Shown here piece after piece: positions 1,048-37,154 of a DNA stretch of 39,399 nucleotides (position 1 is its first letter; the number at the start of each line of letters is the position of its first letter). Position numbers and translations under genes: made by a program. The notes under the pieces are model-generated. The model was not told the origin of the DNA, did no database searches, and saw nothing but the letters and a program-made list of their open reading frames with translations. Location: contig JAHBMJ010000860.1 of assembly GCA_018398765.1 (NCBI GenBank), forward strand, positions 1-39,399. The letters are read 5' to 3'. Source of the DNA: Chromera velia. Its lineage: Eukaryota; Sar; Chromeraceae.

Positions 1048-4000
1048 CAGAGCAAGACTTCAGTCTCCCCACGGACCCTGCAGGAAGAAGTGTCCGGGTC
1101 CTGCCCGCAAGCGATGTCACGGCAGTCTCACTTTTTTGTTGCTGGATGAACGCTGCGAGAGTCTGCAGACAAGAAAGAATCTCGAACCATGCACTTCATT
1201 GCTACCGATTCATATTCAGGGACTTGGGGAGCACGTTTCAGAGACGGCAGGAGAGTCAACAAGAGGGAGAGTCCGTCGGAAATCGAAAGGCAAGTCGAGC
1301 ATCAGAAATGCATCTCAAGGACAGAAGAACCACGGCAGATGTCATCAAATTGAGAATCTCTCAATCGAAATAAAAAAGAATGTATTTCCATTTTAAACCA
1401 GAAGAAAGGACAGAAGACATGTTTACATAGAAGGAAAAACCGCATCGTCAGGGCCTACAGGGAGATCGCCATGCAGGCAAACAAGAAAAAAGTATCCACA
1501 CACACTATGGATGAGAGGCCCCCGAATGTCTTCCTCACTAATTCACCTTGAAATGACTGAGAAACGCTCTCTGCAGCCCTTCTGCCTCCTCCACACAGCA
1601 GCTCCCACTTTCTCTTTGTTGCCCTCCCGTTCTTCTCACCCCCCGTTCACCAGCCCCCCCCTCTCGTTTGGTTCCCTCGTTTTCTGAGGATCCTGATGCA
1701 GATCCCGTTTCTCCTCCCACCACTCCCCGAGGACCAGCAAGGGGATCTGCAGTAGGCGGCAACGCAAAGCCCCCTCCCTCCAGCTCCTCCGCCAGGCTCT
1801 TCGATCCCATACCGTACACAACCGCATAACAGAGCCGCTTGGCCCCCGCCCTCTGTTCGGCTGTGACTTCGTCCGGATCTATCTGGAGCCAGGAGGCTGC
1901 AATGAGGAGAAAGGGGTCCTTGTCGGCAGCGAACAGCTCGCACAGACGCGGGTCTCCACTGAAGTGAGCCAGGAGACGCAACTGCATCAAGCAAGCAAGC
2001 AAAGCAAGGACGTAAGGAAAAGAATAAATACACGTAGAATCACGAGAAGAGAGCATACACGCAGAAACAGATACAAACGGACGGAGACAGCGATTGCGAT
2101 TGAAGTACAACGAGACACACGAGCTCCAATATAATATCCCCTCCTCCGGAGTTGAAAAACGGACAAAGGAGAAAGGAGGGTCGTTCCTTGTGTGTGGCTC
2201 TCTTCTTTTCCATCTGTCCTCTTCCTTCCTCTCCCTCTTCTTTTCTGCTCCCTCACCATGCAGACCAACCTCCAGTTGGCAGAAGTCCAAAGAGACAAGA
2301 ACCCACTGCATGGAGGAGTCACACGCAAACAGGGAACGCAAATTTAGCTCAAAGTTCAAAGGACCCCCACGCCCGTCTCCTCCCTCGAGACTCTTTTCAC
2401 TTCCACGCTGCGATTGCGACTGAGACTGTTCAGACTGTTGCGAGAACCCCCCCCCGCTACTGCTGCTGCATCGAGCCCCCAGTCCCATTCCCTGCAGGTC
2501 TTCCCACCCCCACACTCCTCGCAGCTCCTCCATCAGATCCTTCCGGGGAGACTCTGCAGCTTCGCAGACGAAAACCTGATCGGCAGGATAGGTGAGGACC
2601 GTCTGACGACCTCCGAAACCCTCCACTGCCACTCTGACTTGCCGGATTCGTCTTGCCTTTGCGTCTGGATACGCATGTCCCTGCTGTCTCCAGTAGTCAG
2701 CCAGAGTTCTTCTATCAACAGCCAGAGTACCTCTATGGCCTGACTCCGGCGCTCCTCCTGTCCTGTTCTTCCAGTGGTAAGAAGAAGAAGAAGAGGAAGA
2801 AGAGGGATTCTGTTCTGTGTCTGCGAAGGGATCTAGCATCGACCTGGTCATGCACACCTCCACCAACTCGCAGGTCCGTCCGTCCCCCCCCATGTCCTTC
2901 CCTCCTTTCTGATTTCCATGAACCCCCCCTCTTCTCCCACCCCCCCTTACTTCTTTCTTCGCATTCCGTGCAAAGACAACAAACGGAAGTGCCCTGTCAG
3001 AAGCTTCCCTCGAGTGCGATGGGGAGAGGACTGAGCCCGGCTCGAAGTTCATCAGAGACCTCAGGCGGGTGTGCCACCTTGGCGGGCCCCTGGCGTCCCG
3101 AGAGGATAGGAAAGCCGAAGACCTGCCCCCCACCGACGCTGTGTCTCCTTGAGATGCTAAGCCTTGAGACTGCTGTGTCACTGGGGGAAAGTCTCCGTCT
3201 CCTTCTGCCCCCGCTGCTTCGGCAAGGGACCCCATTTCCTCTATTGCTTCTTGTATCGAGACAGGCGGCCTTCGGACTATCGAGAAGGGACGGTCAACAC
3301 ACAGGAGGTTGGGGGAGCGGGTCTGCAGACGGCCTGTCACAGAGTGGGTCTGCAGCCACGTGCACCTGCAAGCATCAATGGAATCGCAGTGAAGAGATGA
3401 AAACAAGCGGTTAGAAGATTCCACCAACAACTAGACGAAGGCAGGACCGCTCCCATCATTTCCGGTGACAGGAGAGGAGCAAATGACAAGAAAAGCGGGC
3501 CGGACGACAGAGCACAGCTACAAAGCCAAAGAGAGAACTTGCTCCCACAGATTGACTGCGCTGACTGACCGCACGCGGAGAGAGCCCTGCGGTTGTGCCC
3601 TGCCACACAGAGCACATCCCCGCTCCCCGCCTCCCTCAGTGGAGGTGGACAGAGCAGACATCCTTGGAGGTCCCTGACTCGACGGGAGAAACAGAGAAGA
3701 GGAACAGGGAGAACCTTCTTTCGCTTCCCCGCCCTGTGCGGACCCTCGGCGACTCTCCACTCCCCCACACCCACACGCAGGGCAGCCCGAGTCCCTTGCA
3801 GTGTCCGCAGCACTCTCCTCAGCAGCTTTTTTGATTGCGCGCACCTTCTGCTGAAGACTGCTGACACGCCTGCCAAAAAAAAAAAAAAGAATGTGGGGAG
3901 CCAAACAAGAAAAGCATAAATGGAATTCCACCAGAAAGCAGCGGGCACTCTCACAATGCGTTTGCAGGGGGAATGTAAAGTACCAGCGGACCCAATGCAG

Positions 4001-22061: not shown

Positions 22062-23025
22062 ATGCCTCTGACTACCAGGAGGGCCCTCTTCGGGCTTCTC
22101 CTCCACATTGCTGTACAAACGGGACACAGCCAAAGTAAGTAGATGCACCTTTCCATGGTGCAGCCATAGTCGGATCACACATTTGACCTTCTTAGCAGAT
22201 AGTGGTGTCATAACATGACTCCCCTTTGCGGTTGTCAACATCCTTGCAGGTGTGCCCGAGGACGAGTGCGGCTCCGGGACGGACACATGTGCCACATACA
22301 CTTCGTGTCTGAACACTGTGGGCAGGTGGGCTCTCCTCTTCTGCCCTGTGCACTCGTCTTCTCTACACGAGTCACACGAGACGGCAAGTTGCTTCCTACC
22401 CCCACTCCCTGTTCTGCCCTGTGCCTGTCCGTGCAGCTTCCTGTGCCAATGCGACCCTGGGTTCGAGTCCTTCAACGACACGCACTGCATCGGTAGGTCT
22501 GTCCCTCATCTGTGTCCCCTTCACCCGGCTCTCTCCGTGCCCCGCCTCTTCTTCAGCCACCCTTTCCTATGACGAGTCTCATCTATTCCGTCATTTTCCT
22601 TCTTCACATCTTCCAGCGCGCCCTGCAAGCAGACTCCAGTGCTGCCGTAAAGATGGGGTGTCATCTGAACCCTGTATGCATGTGCAGGAAGGGAGTGCAC
22701 GGGAACAGTGCCCTGGTCGGGATGGACCTCTAGTGAGCTGGTGATGACTCCAGAGTTTTTCATCGCTGACGGGAGGGAGGTGGGGGGCGTTGACGGAGTG
22801 ACGGAGTGGAGGGCTGCGGATTCCGTTGTGTTCTCTTGCCCTGACGGTTTTGAGCTTCGGGGGGCGGCGGGCGTCTCCTGTGAGCCCCCCTCGGAGGAGA
22901 TGCCGCGAGGGTCCCCTCGTGCCGTCCCCTCTTGGGGGGAGGTGGGGGAGCGGCCTTCTTGTGAGAGTCAGTCAGTAGGGACAGGCAGAGAGGGAGAGAG
23001 AGACAGGCAGAGAGGGGGAGGGGGG

Positions 23026-23060
<35 letters not shown>

Positions 23061-24373
23061 GGAGTCACGATTCATGCTAAGAAGTCATTCTTGGTCACAG
23101 GGAGGTTTCGTCAAAACGGACAGGCCCCTTTGTCTCCCCCCTCTCTTTTCGTTCCCTGATTTTACGGATGACTGCACCAGCGTGTGGAGAAGAAGAAGTC
23201 CTACATTCAGGGCAAACTTGGATGCTTGAAAGCCCACAAAAAGGGTTTTGGACCAACCTGATTGTTCATGCAAGTCTTTTTCTTGGTTGACTATGCTTGC
23301 ACCGAGAGACAGCGAAGCGATGGGGCAGTTCGTCATGCTTGAGTTTCTTTTACTTTTGCTGTGCAGACTTGAACGAGTGCGAGCTGGGTGTTGACACGTG
23401 TGGTGCTGACGCCACCTGTGTCGACTCAGAAGGCTCCTTCGAATGCAGTTGTGAGAGTGGATATGAGCTGGATGCGGAGAACGACTGCAAAAGTCGGTTT
23501 TCCTGTCTTGGTTGTTTGTGATTTGGTTGTTCTGCCTCGATTCTCGACGCTTCATCTGCCTCCTCTGTCTGCGCCGGTCTGACGATCACTCTGAGTTGGT
23601 TGCTGAAGAGCTTTCACTCCTTCTCGTTAGCTCCCAGGCATCTGTCCTGTCTCACCATGCATCTACTGTCGGCAATGATAGTGCACTCTCCTTTCATCCT
23701 ATGCGTGCGGTCTTCTGCTGAGTGTCTGGAGAGGCGCCAGCTTGACTTCTGTTCCTTGGAAGAAAGGCTTCATCAGGAGGTTCTTGCATGGAGAGGGATC
23801 AAATTGATCAGAGAATCAACGGGCTTTCTTTCGAGCTGTGTGCTTCTGTGGTGCAGACATCGATGAGTGTGACCTCGGCCTGCACACGTGCAGTGTGAAC
23901 GCCACGTGCATCGATTCAGACGGGTCCTTCGAGTGCTCCTGCGAGAGGGGGTATGAACTGGATGAGGAGAACGACTGCAAGAGTAAGTCTGGGAAGAGGA
24001 AGAAGCGGAAGGGAAGCAAAGAGAAGGCGTCTTTGGTATCTCTTCGAACCTCTCGGAAAGAAAAGGGAAGAAAAGAAATGTTCGGAGGTCCTCTTTTTTG
24101 TATCTCTTAGAACGGAATGGGAAATGCATTTTTCTTTCTTTTGGTCCTGGAGCTACACCGTCTGTGGCCTCTGCCTTTTCTGACCTTCGCTCTACCCAAA
24201 TGCAGACATCAATGAGTGCGAGCGGGGTCTGGACACGTGTGGTGTGAACGCCACCTGCAACGATTCTGCCGGCTCTTTTGAATGTTCTTGCGAGAGTGGG
24301 TACGAACTGGATGGAGCGAATGACTGTGAGAGTAAGTCTCATAAAGAGGCTGGGGGGCAGGTAGTGTATGGGT

Positions 24374-24405
<32 letters not shown>

Positions 24406-26464
24406 TTGTAAACTTGGCGACAATAGTGGGGAAAGGGGAACTGAAAGTGTTGCAAGGACACCTGCAGGGGTTGCCCCCCCCTGCAGTCTCCTTTCACGAG
24501 GAAAGACTTGTGGCCATGCCGTTCTCCTCCCTTGCTGTGTTTCGTTCTGTGGTTGTCTGCAGACGTCGATGAGTGCGAGCGGAGCCTCGACAGATGTGGA
24601 AGTGGCGCTACTTGTGTCGACTCTACTGGTTCATTTGGATGCTCTTGCGAGAGTGGGTACGAGCTGGATGGAGACCACAATTGCAGAGGTGAGCGTGGTT
24701 GAGTACCTCTCCTTGGTTTGTTCTCTTCTTTTCTAGATGAAGGTCACCGCGCGAGAACGAGACTTTCTTCTTCCTCCGAGTTCTTGCAGGTGTTAACGAG
24801 TGTGAGCTCGGCCAGCACTCTTGCGGCGTTGGTGCTTCGTGCACGGACACTCCAGGCTCGTTCGTGTGCTCCTGCGAAGGAGACGGATTTGAACTCGACA
24901 GGGAAAACGACTGCAGAAGTCAGTTGTGGGATGTTCTCTTGGACAGAAAAATGTCGTCTGTCTGGATGTTTCTTGGTTGACTTTCTGCGTTGTCTGCGCG
25001 GCGTTCAGTTTTCTGGTTGCTCAGAAACCTTTCGAAACAGTCAGGAAAAGGAGAGACTTTTGATGTGAAAGTCCTCCTGACGTGTTCTTCTGATAGTCGT
25101 CACCACGAGATAGGGTCCCTTGTCTGACGCCGGTGTGCTTCTTTTGGTATGGTTGATGACTGAACTGCAGACGTCAACGAATGCGAGACGGGTGTCCATT
25201 CGTGTGGCGTCGGGGCGGCGTGCGTCGATTCGGAGGGGTCCTTCGCGTGTTCGTGCGAGGAGGGATTCGAACTCGGTGATCAGAACGACTGCAAAAGTGA
25301 GTGAGTCGGATGGGAACAACCAAGGAGAGCCTTGCTTCCAAATACTCCAGGAAACGCTTTCTTGATTTGAGGGGTCGAAGACTCGTGCAGACCTTCATGC
25401 TCTATTTCTGATCTCTATTTCTGATCCCTCAAAATCGACACGCTTCGCAGACTCCGTGTCTCGAAACACAACTGGTTGACTTCCTCCCTCCATCTGTGTC
25501 TAAGTGACTTACTGACTGACTGGCTCACGGGCTGCCTGCCTGCCTGCATGCATGCATGTCATAGTCAGCCCTTGAAGAGAAGGAGAGATTTCAAGTGGTG
25601 CTACCCCCGCACGTTTGCAGACATCGATGAGTGTGACCTCGGTCTGGACACATGCGGTGTGAACGCCACCTGCACCGATGCTGAAGGCTCTTTTTCATGT
25701 TCTTGTGAGAGGGGGTATCAGCTGGATGAGGAGAATGACTGCAAGAGTGAGTCTTACCGCGAAACGAGAAACAAACTCGTCCTGCATGCAATGGCATTTG
25801 CAGATCTGTCGGAGGCTTGGACTTGTCTCTAGTGCTGGAAACGCACATAGAGTAATCATCGGTGTCCCTTGTTTTTCCGGAGCGTTTTTGTGATCTCCTG
25901 GGGGGACACTGACCCTGTTTCTTCTGCTGAAATCTCTTCCTCTCTGTGAGTGAGTGCAGACATCGACGAATGCAGCCTGGGCCTTCACCCCTGTCACCCC
26001 ACAGGAGAATGTGTGGACAGTCAGGGGTCCTTCGAGTGCGCGTGTCCGGATGGGTACATCGGGGACGGGTTCTCTGAATGCCTGGAAGGTCTGTCTGTCT
26101 GTCTGTCTGTCTGCCTGTCTGTCTTCGTCAAGGGAAAACGATAAAGGGAACCCCAGAAGAAGAAAAGAAAAGAGAGGGGGAACCCCAGAAAAAAGAAAAA
26201 AAGAAAATGTTACTGCTGCTGGCGGTTGGGGGCCGCTGCTGCTGCTGCCTCGTAAACGAAAGGAGAAGAAAAGAAACGAACACGTCCAGATGGAAAGAAT
26301 GTGGAAGTGCAAAGGCGTAAGCCTGCACTGGGCAAGGAAGGGCCGCAGGGTACGCTTAAGGCCTGGAGCTCTGGTACCCTTCCACTGAGAGAGCGCGCCA
26401 AAAGAAGAAACAAAGAAACAGAAGCGAATGAAGAAGAAGAAAAAGGGAAAGAAAAGACGATATA

Positions 26465-26498
<34 letters not shown>

Positions 26499-26728
26499 GC
26501 GTGCGTCGGTTGAGTTGAAGGGAATGAAAGATGTGCAGCAGTTCAGTGTGGTGAAAAAAGAAGGCAACTCCGAAGAACCGAACCGAGACTGCGGCTGTCT
26601 CTCTCGCTGTCTTTGTATTTCGATACCTCTCGTCTTCTTTCTGACCACTCGGTGGAGATGAAAGAGACACTGTCTGCAGAATGACATATTTCAAGCCAAA
26701 TGATTCCAAGTCTCTTTGCCATCGAGTA

Positions 26729-26766
<38 letters not shown>

Positions 26767-29700
26767 GCAGACCCGAACGAGTGCACCAGTGGCGCCGCCA
26801 CTTGCGGACCCCACACGCGGTGCATCAACGGAGTTGGCAGGTCAGAAGGGCAGCCTGTGTGTTTGCATGTACAGTTCCCTCTCGTGTGCAGTCCTCGCAC
26901 TGGACAGTTCCTTCTTTTACTTACGCTTGCTTCGTTGTGCTGATGATGTCTATCTCCAGTCGTTCGCAAAACTTATGCTGGAGCATTCACGTTGCTCCAT
27001 CATACGATGACGGTGTTTTCCTCCGATCACAACGACCGTAAAAGAGGCGGTTATTGTTGGCTGCAGCGCTCCTTGCTCTTTTTCCTTTGCCGGCTTCACT
27101 CCTGCATCCCTGTTTGGTGAGCGGTCAAGAGGCTCCGGTTAGTTGTCGAATGCATGCACACGGCCCTTTCTTCCGTCTGTTCTTTGCATCGTCTTTTCAA
27201 TTTGTGGGGGGCATACTCTTTGCCCTGCCCTGCTGTCTGCAGCTTTGTCTGTCAATGCCACCCTGGCTTCAGAGAGTTGAACGAGACACACTGCCTCGGT
27301 CAGGATGGGAGAGAAGAGGGTAGAAGGGCAAAACACATAGAGGTGCTTGGCTTTCTGAGTTGAATCATCCTTTCGCTCTCTTTCTTTTCTGTGAAAAGGT
27401 GTCGGGGCTTTCTACTTGTTCTACTCTCATTTTCCTCTTGCTGTTTGCAGGACTTGAGTGCGATGGCCCGACGCCCTGGTCAGGGTGGGGTCCCGTCAGC
27501 GATGCGGGGGAGGATGGAGAAGAGGAGCTGGTGATGACTCCAGAGTTTTTCATTGCTGACGGGAGGGAGATAGGGGTTATTGACGGAATGACGGAGTGGA
27601 GGGCTGCGGATTCCGTTGTGTTCTCTTGCCCTGACGGTTTTGAGCTTCGGGGGGCGGCGGGCGTCTCCTGTGAGCCCCCCTCGGAGGAGATGCCGCGAGG
27701 GTCCCCTCGTGCCGTCCCCTCGTGGGGGGAGGTGGGGGAGCGGCCCTCTTGCGAGAGTCAGTCAGTAGGGACGCGAAGTCTCTTTCTCGGCTCTTCTGTC
27801 TTCCGCCCTTCCGTCTTTCCCTCGGCTCACCTTTGCTTCCCTTCGTTGCACTATTGCATTTGTTCTTCTCTTCTCTTCTCTTCTCAACCAGGTTTGCCAC
27901 CCCTCTGTTCCTTTCTGCTTGTCCGTATGGTTGTCTGCAGACATCGATGAGTGCGAGCGGAGCCTTGACACATGTGGATCTGGAGCCACTTGTGTCGACT
28001 CTAACGGGTCTTTTCAGTGCTCATGCGAAAGGGGGTATGAACTGGATGGAGACAACAATTGCAGAGGTCAGAACAGTCCATTCGATGGTGAGGTCTGACT
28101 GTCCCTGTGCTCCTGGCCAGTCGTCTGTTTGTCAGGCATCCTGAAAAACGACTCCGGAGGTTCATATATCTTCTTCGGTTTTCTGACTCTTCCGCCTTAG
28201 TTTTCTTCTCTGTGCTCGGACTGACCGTCTCTTTGCCTTTGTCAGCTTTTGTGGCCTCGGTTTGCATGCCTGGAATCAATTCTATTGTCTTGCTTCGGCC
28301 CCTGTCTGCAGACGTGAACGAGTGTGACCTCGGCCTGCACACATGCGGTGTGAACGCCACGTGCATCGATTCAGACGGGTCCTTCGAGTGCTCCTGCGAG
28401 AGGGGGTATGAACTGGATGAGGAGAACGACTGCAACGGTGAGTTTGGAAGAGGAAAGAGCAGACACACGTTTCTTCCAGTAAATTGAGGTGTGAGGAGAA
28501 GACCAAATAAATCCGCTTCCCGCTGGTTGCCTTCCCGCCTGTTTTGTTGGAGAGTTCTTCTGCTCGGGGCACCGATCTCTCTGCTTTCTGTTGCTGTGGG
28601 GACAGGTGTCTCGGTTTAAAGCCTTGCGTGTTACCAGAGTAAAGAAAGAAACACGACAGTTAGAGGATGTTCAATCTGTTTATTCTCATGCTGCAGATGT
28701 GAATGAGTGCGAACGCGATCTGGACACCTGCGGTGTCAGAGCGCGGTGTGCGGACTCTCCGGGATCCTTCTTGTGCTCCTGTGAGACGGGATATGAGATG
28801 GACGAGGAGAATAACTGCAACAGTCAGTCTAGTGAAGAGAGAGCAGAGAGGAGAGCTGAAGCTCGGGGTCGAAGGGGGGGAAGAGATTTTCGGGAGAGGG
28901 GGGGCGAGAATTCTGAAGGAAGAAATGGAGAGAGAGAGAGAGAGCATCAATCAGACATCTCTGCAGTAAATACTGTGTAGAGGGGAAGGAACGGCTTCAA
29001 TTGCTTATAAACTAATTTGAGAGTCCCCGAATTTCAAAGGAAGGCCGAGCGTGTGTCTTTTCTTTTTCTCAAGAAAGCCCATCCGAGAGTGAAATGTGCC
29101 TTTCCGAATGTTGACCTCGCTTTGCCGATGTTCATGTGCAGACATCGATGAGTGTAACCTCGGCCTGCACACGTGCGGTGTCAACGCCACCTGCATCGAT
29201 TCAGACGGGTCCTTCGAGTGCTCCTGTGAGAGGGGGTATGAACTGGATGAGGAGAACGACTGCAAGAGTAAGTCATTCACTGGAGAATGACAGTTCGACC
29301 GATGACAGAGACTTTGCTTAGATCTGTCTTCTGCTCGCCTTTCTCCGTACATATTTCCCCTCGTGTGGATTTTTGCAGCATTTCCCTTGCTGTGAAAAAT
29401 TTGTGGATTGATTGATTGATGGATTGCTTAAGTGAGTTTGTGAGGGAGTTCATGGATGTGGGGTATGAGGTGAGGAAGAGTCTCCTTCCCTTTCCTCCGC
29501 TTGTGGGTGCAGAAATCGACTGGTGCGAGAGGGCCCGTCTCTCTGCGAACAGCTCCGAGGTGTGCGAAGAGGGCAGCGAGTGCGTGAACACCCTCGAGGG
29601 ACACGTGTGTGTGCACCGCGGGTGCTCCTTGGAGGGCAACGGCTGCCCTGCGCTGGCTACGTGCGAGCAGACCACCCCTCTGGCTGCCCCTGTGTGCGTG

Positions 29701-32700
29701 TGTCGGGAGGGCCTCCTGTTGATGGACGGAGAGTGCAGAGGTGAGTGAGTGAGCCGGTGGGGGTGGAAGGAAAGAGACGGGGGGGGAGAAGAAGGCTTTG
29801 CAACGGCACTTTCTTAAAGGGTGCGAATCCATGCCCCTCCACCACCGGTTTGTTTTTCTTGTGTTGGCGTATCGCCCGCCGACAGGCCCCCCGTCGGTCA
29901 TGGAATGCTTTTGTTATTTCTTTCCCGCGTTTTCTTTCCGTGGCGCCTCATTTTGATGTCTTTCTTCCTTCTCCCCCCCATGCCTGATTCGTTTTTTTTT
30001 TTTTTTTGCAGTGGAGGGGCAAGATGCCGAGGCAGCCTTGGCAGGTGCTTCTTCCCTTCTGACGAATTTGGAGGACGATGATGAGTTCCTCGGCAGCAGC
30101 GAGGGGCTTGCGATGTTGGGGGCAGTGGCTGAGGGAGGGGAGACGTTCGCACAGGCTGCACAGCAGTCCGCAGAGCAGGCAGGGGCGCTGCGAGAGCTCC
30201 AGAACAGGGCGGTGAGTCTGGGTAGACGTGCTGTGACGACGATGACTGCACGTCGCCTGGACGAGTCGGAGGTTGGGGCTGTGGTGAAGACTTTGGGTCT
30301 CCTTGGAAACTTGGCTTCTGTGGAGAGTGAGAGTCAAGACGAGAAGAACGAACAGAGGGGAGCTGCGGCGTCTGAACGTGTGCGACAGAGGGCCCAGACT
30401 CTGCGAACGGTCAGTTAGTTGGAGGACGGCTTGTTCTCTGTAAGCATTTATCAGGCCTCTCTGCGGTAGAAAACGGACTCTCTGGCCAGCAATGCTCACT
30501 GACGAAAGCGTTCTCTCTGTCTCTGCATGGAAGTGCACCCTCCCTCCGTCTCTTCGCGCGCGAAGGGGCTCACTGGGAAGATGCGCACTGACTCCTCACT
30601 CTCTCCCTTTCTGTTCCTTTCTGTTTCTGCAGGCGGGAGACGCCTTAAAGGAAGCTTCCAGAGGTCTGAAGGGAGAGAGCGCCGCCAGCGTGACCAACAC
30701 GGACGCAGGGAACCTTGGATCGACAGTTTTGTCGCTTTCCGGGACCCTCAAGTCTCTGGGTGAACGCGCAGGGACTGCACCACAAGGGGTGCGGCGGCGT
30801 GCACCAGAAGCAGAAGGGGATGAGTCGGAGGAAGAGGAAGAGGAAGAGGATCCGGAGATGATGGAGAGAGAACAGGAGATGGGAAGGACGTCGAGAACTC
30901 TAGAGAGCTCAGCCAACGAAGCAGGTGGGGAGTGGGGCTCTGCCCTTCGTGCTTTCGGCTTGTGTGTCTGTATCCGTCCTTGTTCTTCAGAGCACCTTTC
31001 AAGTAGTTTGTGCTTTTGGTGTGTGTGCTCGTTCCACGTACGTTTTGCGCATCTTCTTTTCATGATCGCAAGACGGCATCGACTTTCATTCCTTTTTCCT
31101 CCTTCCTCTTTTCCCTTCCCTGCAGCCCTTCTGCTTGTCGAATCAGCAAGGGCAGTGAGAGGTTCTCGTGACGTCAGCGCTCTGTCTGGAGGACTGGGAG
31201 TGAGGGCTCTGAGCTTGGATGATTTCCAGAGAGACGGTGTGACGCTGGTGACACCCGACACGTCTGTCAAATTCCCTCCGCCCCCTCCCAGCATGATGTT
31301 GTCTCTCCGGCAGGTTCCCTCTTGTCCCGAAGAGGAGCCTGTAGTGGTCTCTCTTGTGAAGTGGTCCGTCTCGCCGCACGGCTTCGCTCAGAGTTCCAAG
31401 GGCTCTGCTGAAGATGCCACGGGTGTGAAGATCTTCCGTTGCGGAGTGCTCGTGCCTGCTGAAGGCTTCGGGCAGGAAGTGGGGGAGCAGAGAGAGTCTG
31501 ATGCAGCAGAAGCGGAAGAAAAACAGAATGGAAGAATTCGGATCGTCATGCGATTTAATCGGAAAGAGGGTGAGGGAGGGGTTCAGACTCAGTCACTGGG
31601 GGGAAGGCAGAGGAGGAGTAGGAAGAGTGCAATCAAGCGTCGATTGTTCGAGTTTTTTGGTCGAGCATCAAGGCAGGTTGCACAAGAGCCGGAGGTCATC
31701 CAGAAGAACGTCACGACGTTTGGAGAGACATGTCAGTTTTGGGATCACTCTCTTGAGAATGTCGGCGCTTACAGTCGAGAGGGGTGTGTGACAGGTCCCT
31801 CGAGCAACTCAACCCACACAGAGTGTTTCTGCACTCATCTGACGTCCTTCTCTTCTGTTCTTGACACGACTCGGGTTGTGTTGACGGACACGAACTACGA
31901 TGTGATCTGGAGATGGGAGGAGGCTGCAGAGAAATTCCGTTTCGACAACATCACTCTGTGGGTGTGGATCATCGTCACCCTCCTCTTCCCTCTGCAACTC
32001 TTCAGGTCCGTTTTTTCGGTCTATCTGTCATCTCAATGGGAGGGAGCGGAACACAACAGGGAGTGTACAAAGGAAATTGAGCGCTTCGTTTCACCGCTCA
32101 TGGTCTTCATTTTTTTATTGCTCTCAGTGACGGCCTCAGCTCCCCTCGGTGAAGCCTTCTCGAGAGAGCAGGTCTTGATGCGCCAAAAGGAAGGGGCACA
32201 TAGACAGGCAGGCAGACAAGCAGACGGACAGACGGACATACAGGCAGGTATGCAGCTGCAAAGTTCTCAATGTACCCCTTCTCTCCATTCCCTTCCTGTG
32301 CGCCTCCCTTGCTCTTTCCCTGCAGGGCGTCTCGGCGTGACAAGAAGGAAGGGAGGCACAGCGTGATGAGTGCTGCAGGAGAGGAGAGGTTCCTCGGGAA
32401 CGGCAGAATTCTGTCGAGGGTCGTGGAGGGACCCTACAAGTGTGTGCCCATCTGCTTCTGCTTCGAAGTCTGCAAATTGAGGCAAATTGCTAGACACCGG
32501 TCAGTCACTTAGTCAGTCAGTCAGTTGGGGGATCAAAGAGAGTGCAAGGATCGGCTGAGAGGTTAAAGGAAGAACGTGAAAGGGAAGGGAAGGAAAACCT
32601 GAAGCAATTCTCTTTTGGTAAGGCGAAGGTCTCAGAAAGTTGCCTGTTGTCGTTCATATGGCAGTACAGCTTTTTCATTTCTCTTTGCGTGAACGGCTAT

Positions 32701-35700
32701 GCGCCCTCAGGTTCTCTTCCTGCTTTGCGTAGCTTACCTCGGCTTGATGTGACACTAAGGAACCGTTTCTTTCTGTTCTCATCTCCTCTCTCTTCTGTGT
32801 GCAGACGCAAGACCAAGCTGCGTCACATGTCCAGTTCCAACCTGAGCAGGATGACCTCAGGCGGTTCTCTGGACATCGACCCTGATGGGGGAGGGGAGGG
32901 AGACGACAAGCAGCAGTCGGGGGGGTGGAAGAGGAGAAGGACTGTCCCCATTATTCCCCTGACGGTGAAGGATGCGGCAAAGGCGAAGGAGAGGGAGAAG
33001 AAGATCAAACTGGCTGCACAGTCTGAGTTGAGACACTTCCAGCTTCTCAGTCTCCTCCAAGAGGCAGCAGTCAGGGCCCTGGACTCCGGTGTGACCGGTC
33101 GGCCCGGGCAGCGTGTCCTGGTTTTGCAGGATGGGACGTTTGTGGCCTTCAACACCCGAAAGTCTCTCAGCGAGACGGCTTCCCACTGTTTCCATCAGTG
33201 TCAAGCTGCCCTCAGTTTTATATTCTCGTGTGCTTGGTGTCCGTCCCCCCCTTCGTGTTGTGGGAGGAGACGGAGCTCTTCCGCCTCTCCGCTTGATATG
33301 GCGGCCTCTGGTGGGTGGACTGCTCGTGAGGTGAAGTCGATTGCTTCCTACCTCCTTCGCACGGGACTTTTTGATAAGGTCCTGGAGGCACGTGAATTGC
33401 AGAACGCGAGGGAAGAGCGAAAAGCAGCACGGACGATCGGAAGGCATGCGCAGGCTTATCTGAAGCGACGATCCCGCACTTCAGAAAGCATCGAGACAGC
33501 CTCCCCTCATGCAAATGGGGAGAAAGAGGCAGAGGCAGAGGCAGAAGACGCACCTACTCAGTCCCCTCCTCAGCTCTCCAGAGGTACTGGGGAATCGCAT
33601 CAGGGAGTCTTCTCCCGCTCCGGGGAAGGGGAAGAGGGGGGGCTCAAATTGGAGGAAGTGGGCGGGCCCTCGACTTCCCCGAAATCTCGCACAGATCTCT
33701 TTGACGAGTCTCCCTCTGCAATTTCAGCAGGAGCACCCCACATTCTGCGGGTTCCCATTCAGACTTGTCGGTCCTGGACGAGGGATGACGAAAGAAGGGT
33801 GGAGGATGCAGTCAACGCTTTCTTTGATAGAGAAGACACGTCGCCCATCGTTGCCCTTGAACCCATCACCCGCCACCCGCCCCCACACAAACCCGAACCC
33901 CCCGTGATGAAAGGCATCTCTATGACAATGCTGTCAGGGGATTTCCCCGCCTCCTCCCCGGGTTCATCACCCATGAGTGCAGCACCAGCTGCACCAAGAG
34001 AGTCGAAATCCTCCAAGGTTCTCATGCAAGTAGAAGTCAACGTCCGTCTGACGCTCGTGCAGACTCTCACAGGGTCGGCCAGAAGACAGGTCTCCCGAGT
34101 CAACAGCATCGCTCCTGGTGGCTCTGTTTCAGCTGTTCCTGTGCAGCATCAGAACAGGAGTTTCTCTTTTGCAAGAAGTGCAAGTGGGCAAGAGACAGCA
34201 GAGATGCTGGAGAACATGACTGTGTCGACCTTGAGTCTCGAGGGAGACGAGGCAGAATTAGGAGGGGGGGAGAAGGGACAGGACCGATGGGTGAGGTGTC
34301 TGGCGACTTTCTCCGGCAAGGGCATCAGGGTGAGTCGGGGGAAAGGGGGGAGTGATAATCTTGTGGGCTTCGTTTCTGTAATCATAAGTCCCTCTTTCAC
34401 TTTTTTCAAAGAAGCGAATTGCCCTTCTCCCTTTTAAGTGTTTTCCTTCGCTGACTGTGCTTCTGGTCTGCTTTCTTCTTTCCTCCGACACCGTCTTCCT
34501 GCCTCTCCAGCTCAAAGATGCAGATCGACCCCTCATGCTTTTTCCTGGTCTTTCCTCTATTCTGTGTCTTTCCCTCCCGTGCAGTTGGAGCCTGCGGACT
34601 CGTGTGCCGAAGAGGAAGCCAGACTGGCTGGGGCTGTGCCTGCCGAACTTCGAGGCTTCGTTCTGTGGGACGACCGTCGTGGTCAAAAGGAGCAGAGGGG
34701 AAGGAGGCACTCAGCCCCCGTGTCCTCTTCGTCCTCCTCCTCAGTCGCTCTTGGGGATTCCAACACCCACACCCGTGCAGATCGCATGGAAGCCTTTACG
34801 GCAGCTTCAGGTAACCAGGAGTCTGGATTGTCTCTGCAGTCCAAGCAGGGGGAGGGGGAGGCAGAGCACGCGTCCTGCGTGCGTGTGCTGCTTGGAGCAA
34901 AGCGCATGCACAGAGCCACAGTGGTGCACCGACCCAAGTGGAAGACGGCCAAGGCCGCCCTGAAGAGTGCCGTGAATGCCATCAGAGCTCTGCAGGCCAT
35001 GCAGGGAGGAGACACGAGCACGCTGCAGGCTTCTGCAGTCACCCAGCAGCAAACGAGGAGGGCCTTGACAGCCTCTGCTGCCCCTTCAAGTCCCCCTACT
35101 CTAGAGAACCCGCAGACGGCGGCAAGAAACGAGGAGGCAGAAGATCTGGAGGCAGCAGGACAACAGTCACCGAAGGCAGACCCACAGGCAGCGGCCAGGG
35201 AGGGGGAGGAAGTACAAAAGCGCGAAGGTAGTGGAGGGGGTATGAAGGAATCCCGCGAGACTGTGCGTGTCTTTTTTGACATTCCTAACTCCCGCCGTCT
35301 GTGTGTGGACTTCCGTGCCCCAGGCGAAGTCTTCGTCGAGGACTCGAGTGAGTTGTCGAAAATCGAGGAGGAGGTAGAAGCGGGAGAGAAGGGGGAGAGG
35401 AAGGAGGAAGCCCCTGTGGACAAAACCCTCAGGAGAGTATTTGGAGTTGTGCAGAGGAGTGTGAAGCACCACCGAGACCCGGCCAAACAGCTGCCTGACT
35501 GGGAAAAGAGGCAGCAGAGAATCAAGAGCGATCGACGAAAGTCAGTACAAAAGGGCAAAAGCAGGAAGAGACATTGTAAACAGAAGAAACAGGGCGGATT
35601 CCGAGCGAACTTCTCAAAAACACAACCGTCTGTTCTGACCATCCTCGCAGTTTCAACTGAAAAGAAAAGGAATCGTTCTCTGCCCCACCACCTCACGACA

Positions 35701-37154
35701 AGCCGCTCTTCAGCTTTTTTTGCTTTTCAGAAGCCCTTCATTAATTTTCTTTGGGCCGCACGATTGAAGAGAAGAGGAAAACTCCAAGTTTCACCTTGCT
35801 CATGACTGCTTCTCCGTTTGGGCGAATGACTGCAGGATCGACATCGTGAACTGGTCCGTCCTCCGCACCATGCTCGCTGCTTTCGTCTCTGACCACCCTG
35901 CCGTGAGGGCGGTGGCGGGGGCAGAGCCAGATGAGGGCATGACGCACTTCGAGACGGCGATGATCTGTTGGGCTGAGGTGTGGGGAGTCCTTATGGTCAG
36001 TCAGTCACTCAGTCTGTTTACTTGAGGGGGAACTGTTTTCTTCGTTACGTTTTTCACGACACTGGTGGTTTCTCTGGTGGAGTTTTTTTTTTACGTTCAG
36101 TCAGTCAGTCAGTCAGCATTTTTCTCTCACAGTGTTCTGTCTTCCGTGAAGGCGGATCTTCGTTACTTTTTTTTGCCTTTCTTCGCGCCTGTCAAAGGGT
36201 TTGATCGGTTTTTCTTTCTTCCCTTAAAAATGCATGCAGCTGACGGCTCTGTTCTACACAGCCGACGGGGACGAGGCAGAGCCCTCGTACAACCCCGAGG
36301 AGCTCTGGTATGAAGTCTCGATCCTGACTAGCTGGAACATGCGCATGATCATTGCGGTTGTGCTGGCTGAGGTGTTCTCCCTCCCGATTCCCCTCCTGTT
36401 AGACCGTCTCCTCCACTCCCGCGTTCCGTTCATTCCCTCTCTGGCGCCTCTCCGAAGAGCGATCGTCAGATGCCAGAAGATCCCCATCGATCTCATCAAC
36501 AGGCTTTACACGTCAAAGAAGAGCCCCCTGTTCAAACCCAATGAGAGACAGGGTATTGTGAGATCTCAAATCCGCAGGGGGCGGACGGAGGAAGAGGCCC
36601 AAGCTCAAGTTGATGGTACAACAGAGAGTATTCTTCCTCCTGCATGGAGGAGAAAGTGGAGACGGGGGCAGACTGCCAAGCGTGTGGTTGGGTACAGTAT
36701 TGCTGGTGTATGGATTGGTGCCTGCATGGTGTACCTTCTCTCCTTCGCTCTTGTGTGGGACATCACACTTGAGGACGTGCGAGACTGGGCGATCTCCTCT
36801 TCCTGCGAGGGGGCTCTGGAGATCTTCATCAGACCCCTCGTTGTGGCTCTGCTGCTCACACTCATCACCATCTTGGCATTCCAGACACATGTGACGATTG
36901 CACAGAACCTAGTCAGGACCCACCCGGTTCTCGTTGCTTTCGCAGAGGGGGGGGCAGAGGACAACGTGGAGGCAGAAAAGGCGTATCTTGCCTCAGTGGC
37001 CGCGTTGGTGGTGGCTGAGAACAGTCAGAAGGTGACACAGGAGAATGGAGGTGCAGCTGTGGGGGTAAAGGAGGAGGGAGAGGAGGAGGGTGCTGGTGGA
37101 AAGAAACAAGGGGGGGAGGACGTGGGAGGGGAGATTGAAGGACAGGCAGCATAG
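22062..37154 (+). CDS. EGF/Sushi/GAIN-GPS membrane protein with polycystin-1-like helices, 28 exons
   Basis: Model exons: 22062-22134, 22250-22325, 22437-22492, 22688-22966, 23367-23492, 23857-23982, 24206-24331, 24563-24688, 24790-24918, 25171-25296, 25621-25746, 25960-26088, 26771-26840, 27243-27298, 27451-27756, 27941-28066, 28312-28437, 28697-28822, 29142-29267, 29513-29740, 30012-30409, 30633-30924, 31126-32005, 32326-32499, 32805-34329, 34585-35540, 35836-35995, 36240-37154 (TAG). Phases agree throughout; the total is 7962 nt, about 2653 residues. The ATG at 22062 opens a signal peptide ([18 protein letters not shown]). Order: EGF, Sushi, eight EGF, EGF, Sushi, four EGF, Cys-rich exon, GAIN-like region, GPS (cleavage expected after residue about 1356), TM1, a cytosolic loop of about 900 residues, then four more helices. 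It is a surface protein, probably adhesive or sensory. Ligand and partner are unknown. Confidence 0.85.
22250..22492 (+). other. EGF-like domain 1, split over two exons
   Basis: Exons 2 and 3 together encode [21 protein letters not shown] and [18 protein letters not shown], a six-cysteine EGF-like domain interrupted by a phase 2 intron. The same split occurs at exons 13/14 before the second Sushi exon, showing that the pair EGF(split)+Sushi was duplicated as a block. Confidence 0.85.
22688..22966 (+). other. Sushi/CCP-like domain 1
   Basis: One symmetrical phase 1 exon. Four cysteines in CCP order: [26 protein letters not shown] and a final RPSCE, with a Trp between the third and fourth. CCP modules bind protein partners in complement and adhesion proteins. 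It is shorter than copy 2 because the acidic stretch after PWSGW is missing. Confidence 0.75.
22735..22982 (+). repeat. Duplicated Sushi segment, copy 1
   Basis: 248 bp matching 27525-27772 without gaps at about 96% (about ten differences). The match runs past the exon end and includes about 16 bp of the following intron (gtcagtcagtaggg), after which the introns diverge. Confidence 0.95.
23019..23058. repeat. G/A-rich and (GA)n microsatellite
   Basis: Pure GA run of about 30 bp after a G-rich stretch, in the intron after Sushi exon 1. Confidence 0.9.
23367..26088 (+). other. Array of eight calcium-binding EGF domains, one per exon
   Basis: Exons 5-12, each 126 or 129 nt and all phase 1-1. 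Each fits the cbEGF pattern: an acidic N-terminus such as NIDEC, then C-x-D-x4-F-x-C-x-C (for example [12 protein letters not shown]), GYELD and a final DC. The Asp/Asn and aromatic residue fit both Ca2+ binding and the Asp/Asn beta-hydroxylation consensus. Symmetrical exons of this kind can be duplicated or lost without breaking the frame. Confidence 0.92.
24376..24405. repeat. (GA)n microsatellite
   Basis: About 30 bp of GA, some 45 bp downstream of the donor of the EGF exon ending at 24331. Confidence 0.9.
26089..26126. repeat. (GTCT)n repeat starting at the donor of EGF exon 12
   Basis: The exon ends at 26088 (GAA G) and the intron begins gtctgtctgtctg and keeps the GTCT/GCCT unit for about nine copies. 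The repeat start coincides with the 5' splice site. Confidence 0.95.
26465..26499. repeat. (GTCT)n tetranucleotide repeat
   Basis: Second GTCT tract in the same intron (26089-26770), about eight units. Confidence 0.95.
26730..26768. repeat. (CT)n tract used as polypyrimidine tract
   Basis: CT repeat running into ttctgcag at 26763-26770, immediately before the exon starting at 26771. Confidence 0.9.
26771..27298 (+). other. EGF-like domain split over exons 13 and 14
   Basis: [18 protein letters not shown] (exon 26771-26840) joins [18 protein letters not shown] (exon 27243-27298) through a 402-bp intron at the same phase 2 position as the first split EGF. The acceptor of exon 13 uses a (CT)n microsatellite as its polypyrimidine tract. 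Confidence 0.85.
27451..27756 (+). other. Sushi/CCP-like domain 2
   Basis: Paralogue of the exon at 22688-22966, with the same four-Cys pattern ([31 protein letters not shown]). It has an extra [12 protein letters not shown] segment after PWSGW. The shared 248 bp differ at about ten positions. Confidence 0.75.
27525..27772 (+). repeat. Duplicated Sushi segment, copy 2
   Basis: Direct-repeat partner of 22735-22982, about 4.8 kb downstream, covering the 3' part of Sushi exon 15 and its donor. Confidence 0.95.
27941..29267 (+). other. Second EGF array, four cbEGF exons
   Basis: Exons 16-19, all 126 nt and phase 1-1. Exons 28312-28437 and 29142-29267 are nearly identical to exon 23857-23982 of the first array, sharing the run from [20 protein letters not shown] onward. 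Confidence 0.92.
29513..29740 (+). other. Cysteine-rich exon, two degenerate EGF-like units
   Basis: A 228-nt phase 1-1 exon with about ten cysteines: [22 protein letters not shown] then [15 protein letters not shown] and [16 protein letters not shown]. It closes the EGF region before the GAIN-like part and lacks the Ca2+-binding consensus. Confidence 0.7.
30012..32005 (+). other. GAIN-like region, GPS autoproteolysis motif and first transmembrane helix
   Basis: Exons 21-22 encode a mostly helical Ala/Glu-rich stretch, as in GAIN subdomain A, followed by an acidic run. Exon 23 carries the [22 protein letters not shown] then [15 protein letters not shown]. The two Trp/Cys pairs and HL|T at the expected scissile bond (codons at 31836-31844, cleavage between CTG and ACG) are canonical. 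Family knowledge (adhesion GPCRs, polycystin-1) predicts self-cleavage leaving a non-covalent heterodimer. A hydrophobic helix, [18 protein letters not shown], ends the exon and is followed by basic residues at the start of exon 24. Confidence 0.85.
32326..35540 (+). other. Large predicted cytosolic loop between TM1 and TM2
   Basis: Exons 24-26 (about 885 residues) are hydrophilic, with basic patches ([20 protein letters not shown]), Ser/Glu-rich low complexity and short ordered-looking stretches ([36 protein letters not shown]). In polycystin-1 this position holds a PLAT domain of about 115 residues; I cannot recognise one here. Exon 25 is a single open exon of 1525 nt. Confidence 0.65.
32500..32525. 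repeat. Short GTCA repeat at the donor of exon 24
   Basis: The intron starts at 32500 with gtcagtcacttagtcagtcagtcag, i.e. imperfect copies of the donor hexamer. Confidence 0.85.
35836..37154 (+). other. Polycystin-1-like helices TM2-TM5 and acidic C-terminal tail
   Basis: Exon 27 ends in [17 protein letters not shown] and exon 28 starts LTALFYT, together one helix like the polycystin nalFyg segment. Three more helices follow: [21 protein letters not shown] (about residues 2384-2404), [22 protein letters not shown] (about 2498-2521), and [19 protein letters not shown] (about 2543-2562). The protein then ends in a Glu/Gly-rich tail with no polycystin TOP domain and no pore helices. Confidence 0.6.

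Follow-up and report, generated by a model that had tools for sequence, protein, structure and literature searches.

A candidate self-cutting receptor gene of Chromera velia with an EGF array, a GPS motif and five predicted membrane helices, and its suggested kinship to polycystin-1/REJ proteins

Proteins of the polycystin-1 (PKD1) family carry a GPS domain before the first transmembrane segment (TM1) and often an REJ domain (PMC1934368). As far as the cited portion of that sea urchin study goes, a PLAT domain follows TM1 in 5 of 10 family members, and 11 transmembrane (TM) segments with a PKD2-like last six are not universal: SpREJ1, SpREJ8 and SpREJ9 have one TM segment, SpREJ2 has two and SpREJ7 has six, all with a GPS (PMC1934368). 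REJ/GPS proteins with fewer than 11 TM segments are therefore not new, since sea urchin and brown-algal cases have been published (PMC1934368, PMC4700764). A GAIN domain linked to a seven-transmembrane (7TM) domain is described, in the sections cited here, as holozoan-restricted (PMC12716839, PMC13197933). Here, we analyzed a 39,399-nucleotide stretch of DNA from the alveolate Chromera velia (NCBI GenBank assembly GCA_018398765.1, contig JAHBMJ010000860.1; the whole stretch is referred to as the window), the forward strand of which carries the gene under study. We consider it likely, though far from certain, that this window gene encodes a type-I multi-pass receptor that is kin to polycystin-1/REJ (PKD1) and ends where the polycystin-1 channel half starts, acting by the mechanism set out below.

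The coding chain was rebuilt by translation as 28 exons encoding 2653 residues, with a single stop at its end (Table 1). All 27 introns have GT donors and GCAG acceptors, and their phases are consistent throughout; the mean intron length is 264 bases, 19 of the 27 are in phase 1, and the donor of exon 25 that gives an open frame lies at 34329. The original prediction, made from the letters of the window, had proposed a 28-exon chain and the same protein length, which was reproduced exactly and stop-free. The splice sites were set by eye with that exon count in mind.

The GPS, which the original prediction had called canonical with a cut at HL/T, was recovered by Pfam with an expectation value (E) of 3.4e-11 (43.9 bits; cut-off 22.5). 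A profile search of the genome matched the same coordinates at E 5.5e-10, and the GPS profile gave a match in 0 of 14 control genomes. The domain holds one HLT motif, and cleavage there would create a new N-terminus reading TSFSSVLD. With this motif present, the window protein is probably autoproteolysed. The new N-terminus loosely resembles the tethered-agonist consensus of adhesion G-protein-coupled receptors (GPCRs), given as TxFAVLM in the cited part of the source (PMC12716839); we conclude nothing from this likeness.

Downstream of the GPS, five strong hydrophobic segments were found (Kyte-Doolittle peaks 1.67 to 2.53), in agreement with the five helices proposed earlier. They were called from hydropathy peaks rather than by a membrane-topology program, and weaker peaks of 0.9 to 1.1 (e.g., residues 1439-1457, 1597-1621, and 2297-2325) were left out of the helix count. 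Some 30 residues lie between the GPS match and the start of TM1, which places the GPS directly before TM1 as in the PKD1 family; about 920 residues then separate TM1 from TM2-3, and about 95 separate TM2-3 from TM4-5. Net flank charges of +3 after TM1, +2 after TM3, +7 before TM4, and +1 after TM5 fit a predicted topology with the N-terminus outside and the C-terminus inside. The 11 TM segments with a PKD2-like last six were not found, the window gene having five strong segments. No pore exon was seen on the rest of the contig, which runs into a repeat by 38600, in line with the earlier statement that the protein ends before any TRP-like pore.

The ectodomain contains 14 EGF modules. Each of the 12 single-exon modules scored above the Pfam EGF_CA cut-off, and the other two were read by eye. 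The window gene thus carries the EGF_CA repeats by which calcium-binding EGF proteins are recognized, and the earlier claim of such an array was confirmed. Two further claims about the ectodomain were not confirmed. No Sushi domain scored over the Pfam cut-off in exons 4 or 15 (E 0.12 and no match, respectively), and the Sushi reading comes down to a cysteine pattern seen by eye. The GAIN-like region is assigned by its position before the GPS, and the AlphaFold model of exon 23 was poor, with a predicted local distance difference test (pLDDT) score of 42.

Several ectodomain exons are strikingly alike at the nucleotide level. EGF exons 6, 17, and 19 (23857-23982, 28312-28437, and 29142-29267) are near-identical, with 5-10 differences in 123 bases. 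Over the three pairs, 34 of 40 four-fold sites are common, and the adjoining introns are identical at only 52 of 204 positions past the splice signals (Fisher P 1.6e-12 for the exon-versus-intron contrast; the pairs are not independent, and single pairs gave P 1e-4 and 2e-5). Codon bias lifts the four-fold baseline, as more diverged EGF pairs agree at 6/12 to 11/12 sites. The Sushi-like exons 4 and 15 (22688-22966 and 27451-27756) likewise have 42 of 44 four-fold sites in common and unrelated introns. This looks like exon-confined homogenization, for example by complementary DNA, or intron turnover after duplication.

The window gene has relatives in the same genome. GPS loci over the cut-off numbered 14, the window included; the cut-site motif is HLT in 12 of them, whereas contig C455 has HFT and C1755 a degenerate ending of the RFA type. 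A TM2-5 profile was built from the window gene and seven paralogs. Of the 13 GPS paralogs, 11 gave a match to this module, whole or in part, downstream of the GPS and on its strand; seven of the 11 are in the profile and four outside it (C3608, C1291, C3392, and C3801). The C3392 contig ends after the segment preceding TM2, and the TM4-5 part of C3801 scores only E 0.0016. The best chance scores were E 0.08 in reversed frames and 0.48 in shuffled frames; by this measure, the match in C3575 (HLT present, E 0.028) lies at the noise level and the 11 others do not. For C1755, which has no HLT, the profile matched nothing on the gene strand at E≤1; a proline/threonine-rich stretch follows its GPS. 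Helices were read in 11 of the 14 GPS loci (C3392 in part, as its contig ends), and C3801, C3575, and C1755 were judged separately.

A frame break occurs just before an ALFF/ALFY motif in the window gene and in the nine paralogs with both pieces found, which fits an intron common to them all; in C3801, the frame apparently stays open across this point. The TM2-3 motif is conserved across subfamilies. A protein search with exon 28 returned 29 matches on 24 contigs, 14 of which have no GPS match; the only strong match besides the window itself was C100 (45-46% identity). Taking the union of the 14 contigs with a GPS (C1755 and C3575 being doubtful) and the 24 whose helix match reaches E≤0.01, the window gene is apparently a member of an expanded receptor family on up to 28 contigs. 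As a separate observation, the loop that precedes TM2 in C3801 includes a very long stretch rich in Ser-Asp/Lys (L029:3223-5796, minus strand).

EGF_CA matches lie upstream on the same strand, 3-24 kb off, in six other GPS loci (C100, C3575, C3608, C3495, C612, and C1291). Such counts are lower bounds, as 150 of 1350 candidates were scored. Four contigs with a helix match and no GPS match (C686, C1128, C2471, and C3760) likewise carry EGF_CA upstream in the same orientation, which suggests that they hold the same type of gene as the window. These arrangements bear on whether the gene model is wrong, that is, whether an EGF protein and a GPS membrane protein are two adjoining genes, or a pore half lies past the contig end. 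The chain is a reading of genomic DNA, which counts for such an error, as does the high-copy repeat that starts by 38600, 1.4 kb past the stop. Against it, the splice phases agree at the exon 20-21 junction, EGF precedes GPS on the same strand in the six loci named, and the order EGF, GPS, TM1, TM2-5 recurs on one strand among the paralogs. In C100, EGF, an exon-22-like stretch, GPS, and TM2-5 follow one another as across the window junction suspected of being a break. As for the pore, none was seen by eye downstream in six paralogs (C185, C3948, C455, C100, C3608, and C612), and the family contigs gave no PKD_channel match. We regard an error of this kind as very unlikely. Because the module order recurs in paralogs and C100 repeats the suspect junction, a single gene uniting the EGF array and the GPS membrane part, presumably transcribed as one, is the better reading.

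Kinship to polycystin-1 is suggested by REJ. At E≤0.01, the REJ profile had eight matches in the genome; three of them (C3608, C3495, and C612) are partial and lie 1.9-2.3 kb upstream of a GPS on the same strand. All three matches cover only the C-terminal third of the profile, and that of C612 is below the curated cut-off; the C3608 frame was also found by Pfam REJ at E 1e-7, above the cut-off. In the same three paralogs, TM2-5 lies downstream, and EGF_CA matches occur 9-19 kb upstream. With REJ, GPS, and TM2-5 joined in this way, the family of the window gene appears to include REJ-GPS-TM1-...-TM2-5 proteins. Helices 2-5 of polycystin-1 are grouped 2+2. In the paralogs with REJ, the segment leading up to TM2 (...SRTRIQRW...) presumably resembles a stretch of animal polycystin-1. 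We hypothesize that TM2-5 are homologous to helices 2-5 of polycystin-1.

PKD_channel and Polycystin_dom gave no match on the 28 family contigs in an exon-by-exon search of limited sensitivity. Matches to one or the other were found on nine contigs, all outside the family (C1117, C3827, and C2301 among them). The genome therefore appears to encode PKD2-type channels separately from the family genes. Four paralogs, each scanned in a single loop frame, gave no PLAT match at E≤1. A genome-wide PLAT search also returned nothing, but no control gave a match, and hence this silence carries no weight; some PLAT is expected in Chromera because LAP1 proteins carry this domain and, in the part of the source used here, LAPs are traced across the chromerid-colpodellid lineage (PMC11285972). 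We infer that the family as a whole lacks PLAT and pore.

A number of results weigh against the kinship proposed here. In the window gene itself, the search for REJ found nothing in exons 20, 21, and 23 (E≤10) or in the exon-22 frame (E≤1), and that for PLAT found nothing in exons 25 and 26 (E≤10; exon 24, of 58 amino acids, was not scanned singly). The REJ profile also matched, below cut-off, in two prokaryote control genomes. TM3-5 and TM2-5 profiles retrieved no polycystin chain among solved structures, and Foldseek gave no match at E≤0.001 with a membrane model of pLDDT 70, which was made from contiguous DNA and has most of TM2 missing. Second-look structure alignments were no better than common helical arrangements. 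The flank before TM2, on the cytoplasmic side, has a net charge of -2, contrary to the predicted topology. GAIN had no Pfam match genome-wide, in a search that had no positive control and hence carries no weight. Within the family, the remaining exon 28 matches range from E 1e-12 to 9e-3 in a search without a chance control, EGF_CA matches 13-24 kb from a GPS may be parts of other genes, and no EGF was found among the scored candidates in the other 10 of the 14 helix-match contigs without a GPS. The scores of the PKD_channel matches are low (E 3e-5 to 1e-3), and one match contains internal stops; this and the exon-by-exon search make the absence of a pore a soft result.

Part of this evidence would suit a convergent assembly, in which a mobile GPS was joined to an unrelated five-helix module whose helices have another fold and function, so that likeness to polycystin is limited to the GPS (plus REJ in some paralogs). 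Such an origin agrees with helices that match polycystin-1 neither in sequence nor in fold, with tested loop frames devoid of PLAT, and with a window gene in which REJ was not found. However, three paralogs combine REJ, GPS, TM1, and 2+2 helices in PKD1 order, and coincidence would have to cover REJ as well. We therefore think convergence rather unlikely. The likeness that the original prediction saw between the last four helices and those of polycystin-1 was not recovered in sequence or fold searches, which had no positive control. Taken as a whole, its observation of the locus is partly confirmed: it stands for the chain, the EGF array, the GPS, and the five segments, and is not confirmed for Sushi, GAIN, and the polycystin-1 likeness of the helices.

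Under the preferred reading of a polycystin-1/REJ-related receptor, the EGF/Sushi-like array would bind a ligand or surface outside the cell, and the GAIN/GPS region would cut itself at HL/T, with the pieces staying non-covalently attached. A ligand or mechanical pull would then expose the new N-terminus (TSFSSVL...) beside TM1. The five-helix fragment could signal via the cytoplasmic loop of about 920 residues, or it could partner separate PKD2-type channels encoded elsewhere in the genome. We infer ligand or force sensing, and any channel partnership, from this arrangement.

The same architecture could belong to an adhesion protein rather than a sensor, in which a self-cut, reassembled EGF stalk is held by the membrane part as an anchor and the loop serves as a cytoskeletal tether; this is compatible with PKD1/REJ kinship. 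Long calcium-binding EGF arrays, a low-complexity loop, and a large family speak for it, and SUSHI and EGF expansions in chromerids are mentioned in passing, with data not shown, in the cited section of the chromerid genome paper (PMC4501334, section 55). However, several membrane-spanning helices, with a TM2-3 motif that the subfamilies have kept in common, exceed the needs of an anchor, and the retention of HLT in 12 of 14 loci suggests that release matters. An adhesive role is thus possible but doubtful in our judgement.

If the receptor reading holds, the family hints at a stand-alone existence for the receptor half of polycystin-1. The self-cutting ectodomain and first five helices of polycystin-1 are hard to study, being fused to the channel half, and a natural five-helix, self-cutting family with no detected channel would reveal which part can act alone. 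It would also extend the evidence for GPS/REJ receptors far outside animals and offer a candidate sensor family for a free-living, photosynthetic relative of parasites. This unicellular alga, probably related to malaria parasites, has 58 light-harvesting matches in its genome and 11 matches to an alveolin-type IMCp profile, as would suit a photosynthetic alveolate; the IMCp profile also matched in Caulobacter. A bolder proposal, which we put forward as speculation and expect to be wrong, is that polycystin-1 arose when an ancient, independent self-cutting receptor, made up of GAIN/GPS and five helices, was fused with a PKD2-type channel, and that in this alveolate the receptor half persists as an expanded family of its own, spread over up to 28 contigs and acting together with the channels of other genes.

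Elsewhere in the window, a family A DNA polymerase stretch lies at 1538-3430 on the minus strand (Pfam E 2e-22), and further long minus-strand open frames run beyond it to about 10.9 kb. The high-copy repeat at the contig end (38600-39399) has another 27 matches, distributed over 26 contigs besides its own, with 88-100% identity; several of them lie at contig ends.

Table 1. Features of the window gene, and GPS loci of the genome not clearly joined to the TM2-5 module.
Feature	Position	Strand	Basis
Whole coding chain	22062..37154	+	28 exons, 2653 amino acids; last base of stop codon at 37154
Exon 1, likely signal peptide	22062..22134	+	Hydrophobic core by inspection; Kyte-Doolittle peak 0.95
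EGF module 1, exons 2-3	22250..22492	+	Sequence pattern by eye; split over two exons
Sushi-like module 1, exon 4	22688..22966	+	Pfam Sushi E 0.12, below cut-off
Eight EGF_CA modules, exons 5-12	23367..26088	+	Pfam EGF_CA above cut-off, all 8
EGF module split over exons 13-14	26771..27298	+	Sequence pattern by eye
Sushi-like module 2, exon 15	27451..27756	+	96% over 248 nucleotides versus exon 4; no Pfam Sushi match
Four EGF_CA modules, exons 16-19	27941..29267	+	Pfam EGF_CA above cut-off, all 4
Cys-rich EGF-like exon 20	29513..29740	+	EGF_3 E 7e-4, below cut-off
Positional GAIN-like region, from exon 21 into exon 23	30012..31727	+	Precedes GPS; residues 1024-1341 partly conserved in C100
GPS with HL/T	31728..31853	+	Pfam GPS; HLT codons 31836-31844; predicted cut between residues 1356/1357
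TM1, residues 1392-1412	31947..32329	+	Hydropathy, flanking charges; spans intron 23
Loop of about 920 residues, predicted cytoplasmic, exons 24-27	32330..35944	+	PLAT not found in exons 25, 26
TM2-TM3, ALFY motif right after intron 27	35945..36404	+	Reading and paralog profile
TM4-TM5	36690..36881	+	Hydropathy; conserved in paralogs
Acidic C-terminal tail, 90 residues, and stop	36882..37154	+	Translation
GPS loci not clearly with TM2-5 module	C1755:16254-16361; C3575:63936-64049	n/a	GPS profile, TM2-5 profile

Compared with described systems, the window gene shares with adhesion GPCRs a modular ectodomain, a GPS, predicted self-cleavage, and an exposed N-terminal peptide, and differs from them in having five helices with no 7TM domain found (cited sections of PMC12716839 and PMC13197933). 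No 7tm_2 match was obtained in exons 23 and 28 at E≤10, and the only one in the genome (E 0.0036, with five stops inside) is on another contig. The proposed mixture of adhesion-type receptor and polycystin features is thus retained for its polycystin half, through REJ in three paralogs (two over the cut-off), and not for its adhesion-GPCR half, which comes down to the GPS; overall, the original interpretation is partly supported. That the protein is of a type not described in such organisms is plausible. The literature searched, with supplements and most subscription papers outside it, held no account of an EGF-array, five-helix form expanded in an alveolate, and the main text of the chromerid genome paper, supplements not covered, has no word starting with 'GPS' (PMC4501334).

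Within the PKD1 family, the SpREJ proteins resemble the window gene in pairing a GPS with fewer than 11 TM segments; they differ in their animal REJ ectodomains, and the cited portion of the study assigns five TM segments to none of the ten and mentions no EGF array (PMC1934368). Outside animals, the algal protein Ectocarpus Esi0130_0068 combines REJ and GPS with 6 or 7 predicted TM segments, but it has 1427 amino acids and an REJ ectodomain, with no EGF array mentioned in the part of the paper cited; there, its authors report a channel-family match and consider a channel function possible (PMC4700764). With polycystin-1 and PKD1-like proteins, as described in the cited parts of the sources, the window gene shares a large modular ectodomain, a GPS before TM1, a predicted outside N-terminus, and an intracellular stretch between TM1 and the later helices, and its family shares partial REJ in three paralogs (PMC1934368, PMC9672506). 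Unlike polycystin-1, it has an EGF array, and REJ, PLAT, and the TRP-type last six helices were not found. Because PLAT and the channel half were looked for and not found, we do not class the window gene as a polycystin-1; it may instead work like the receptor half of one.

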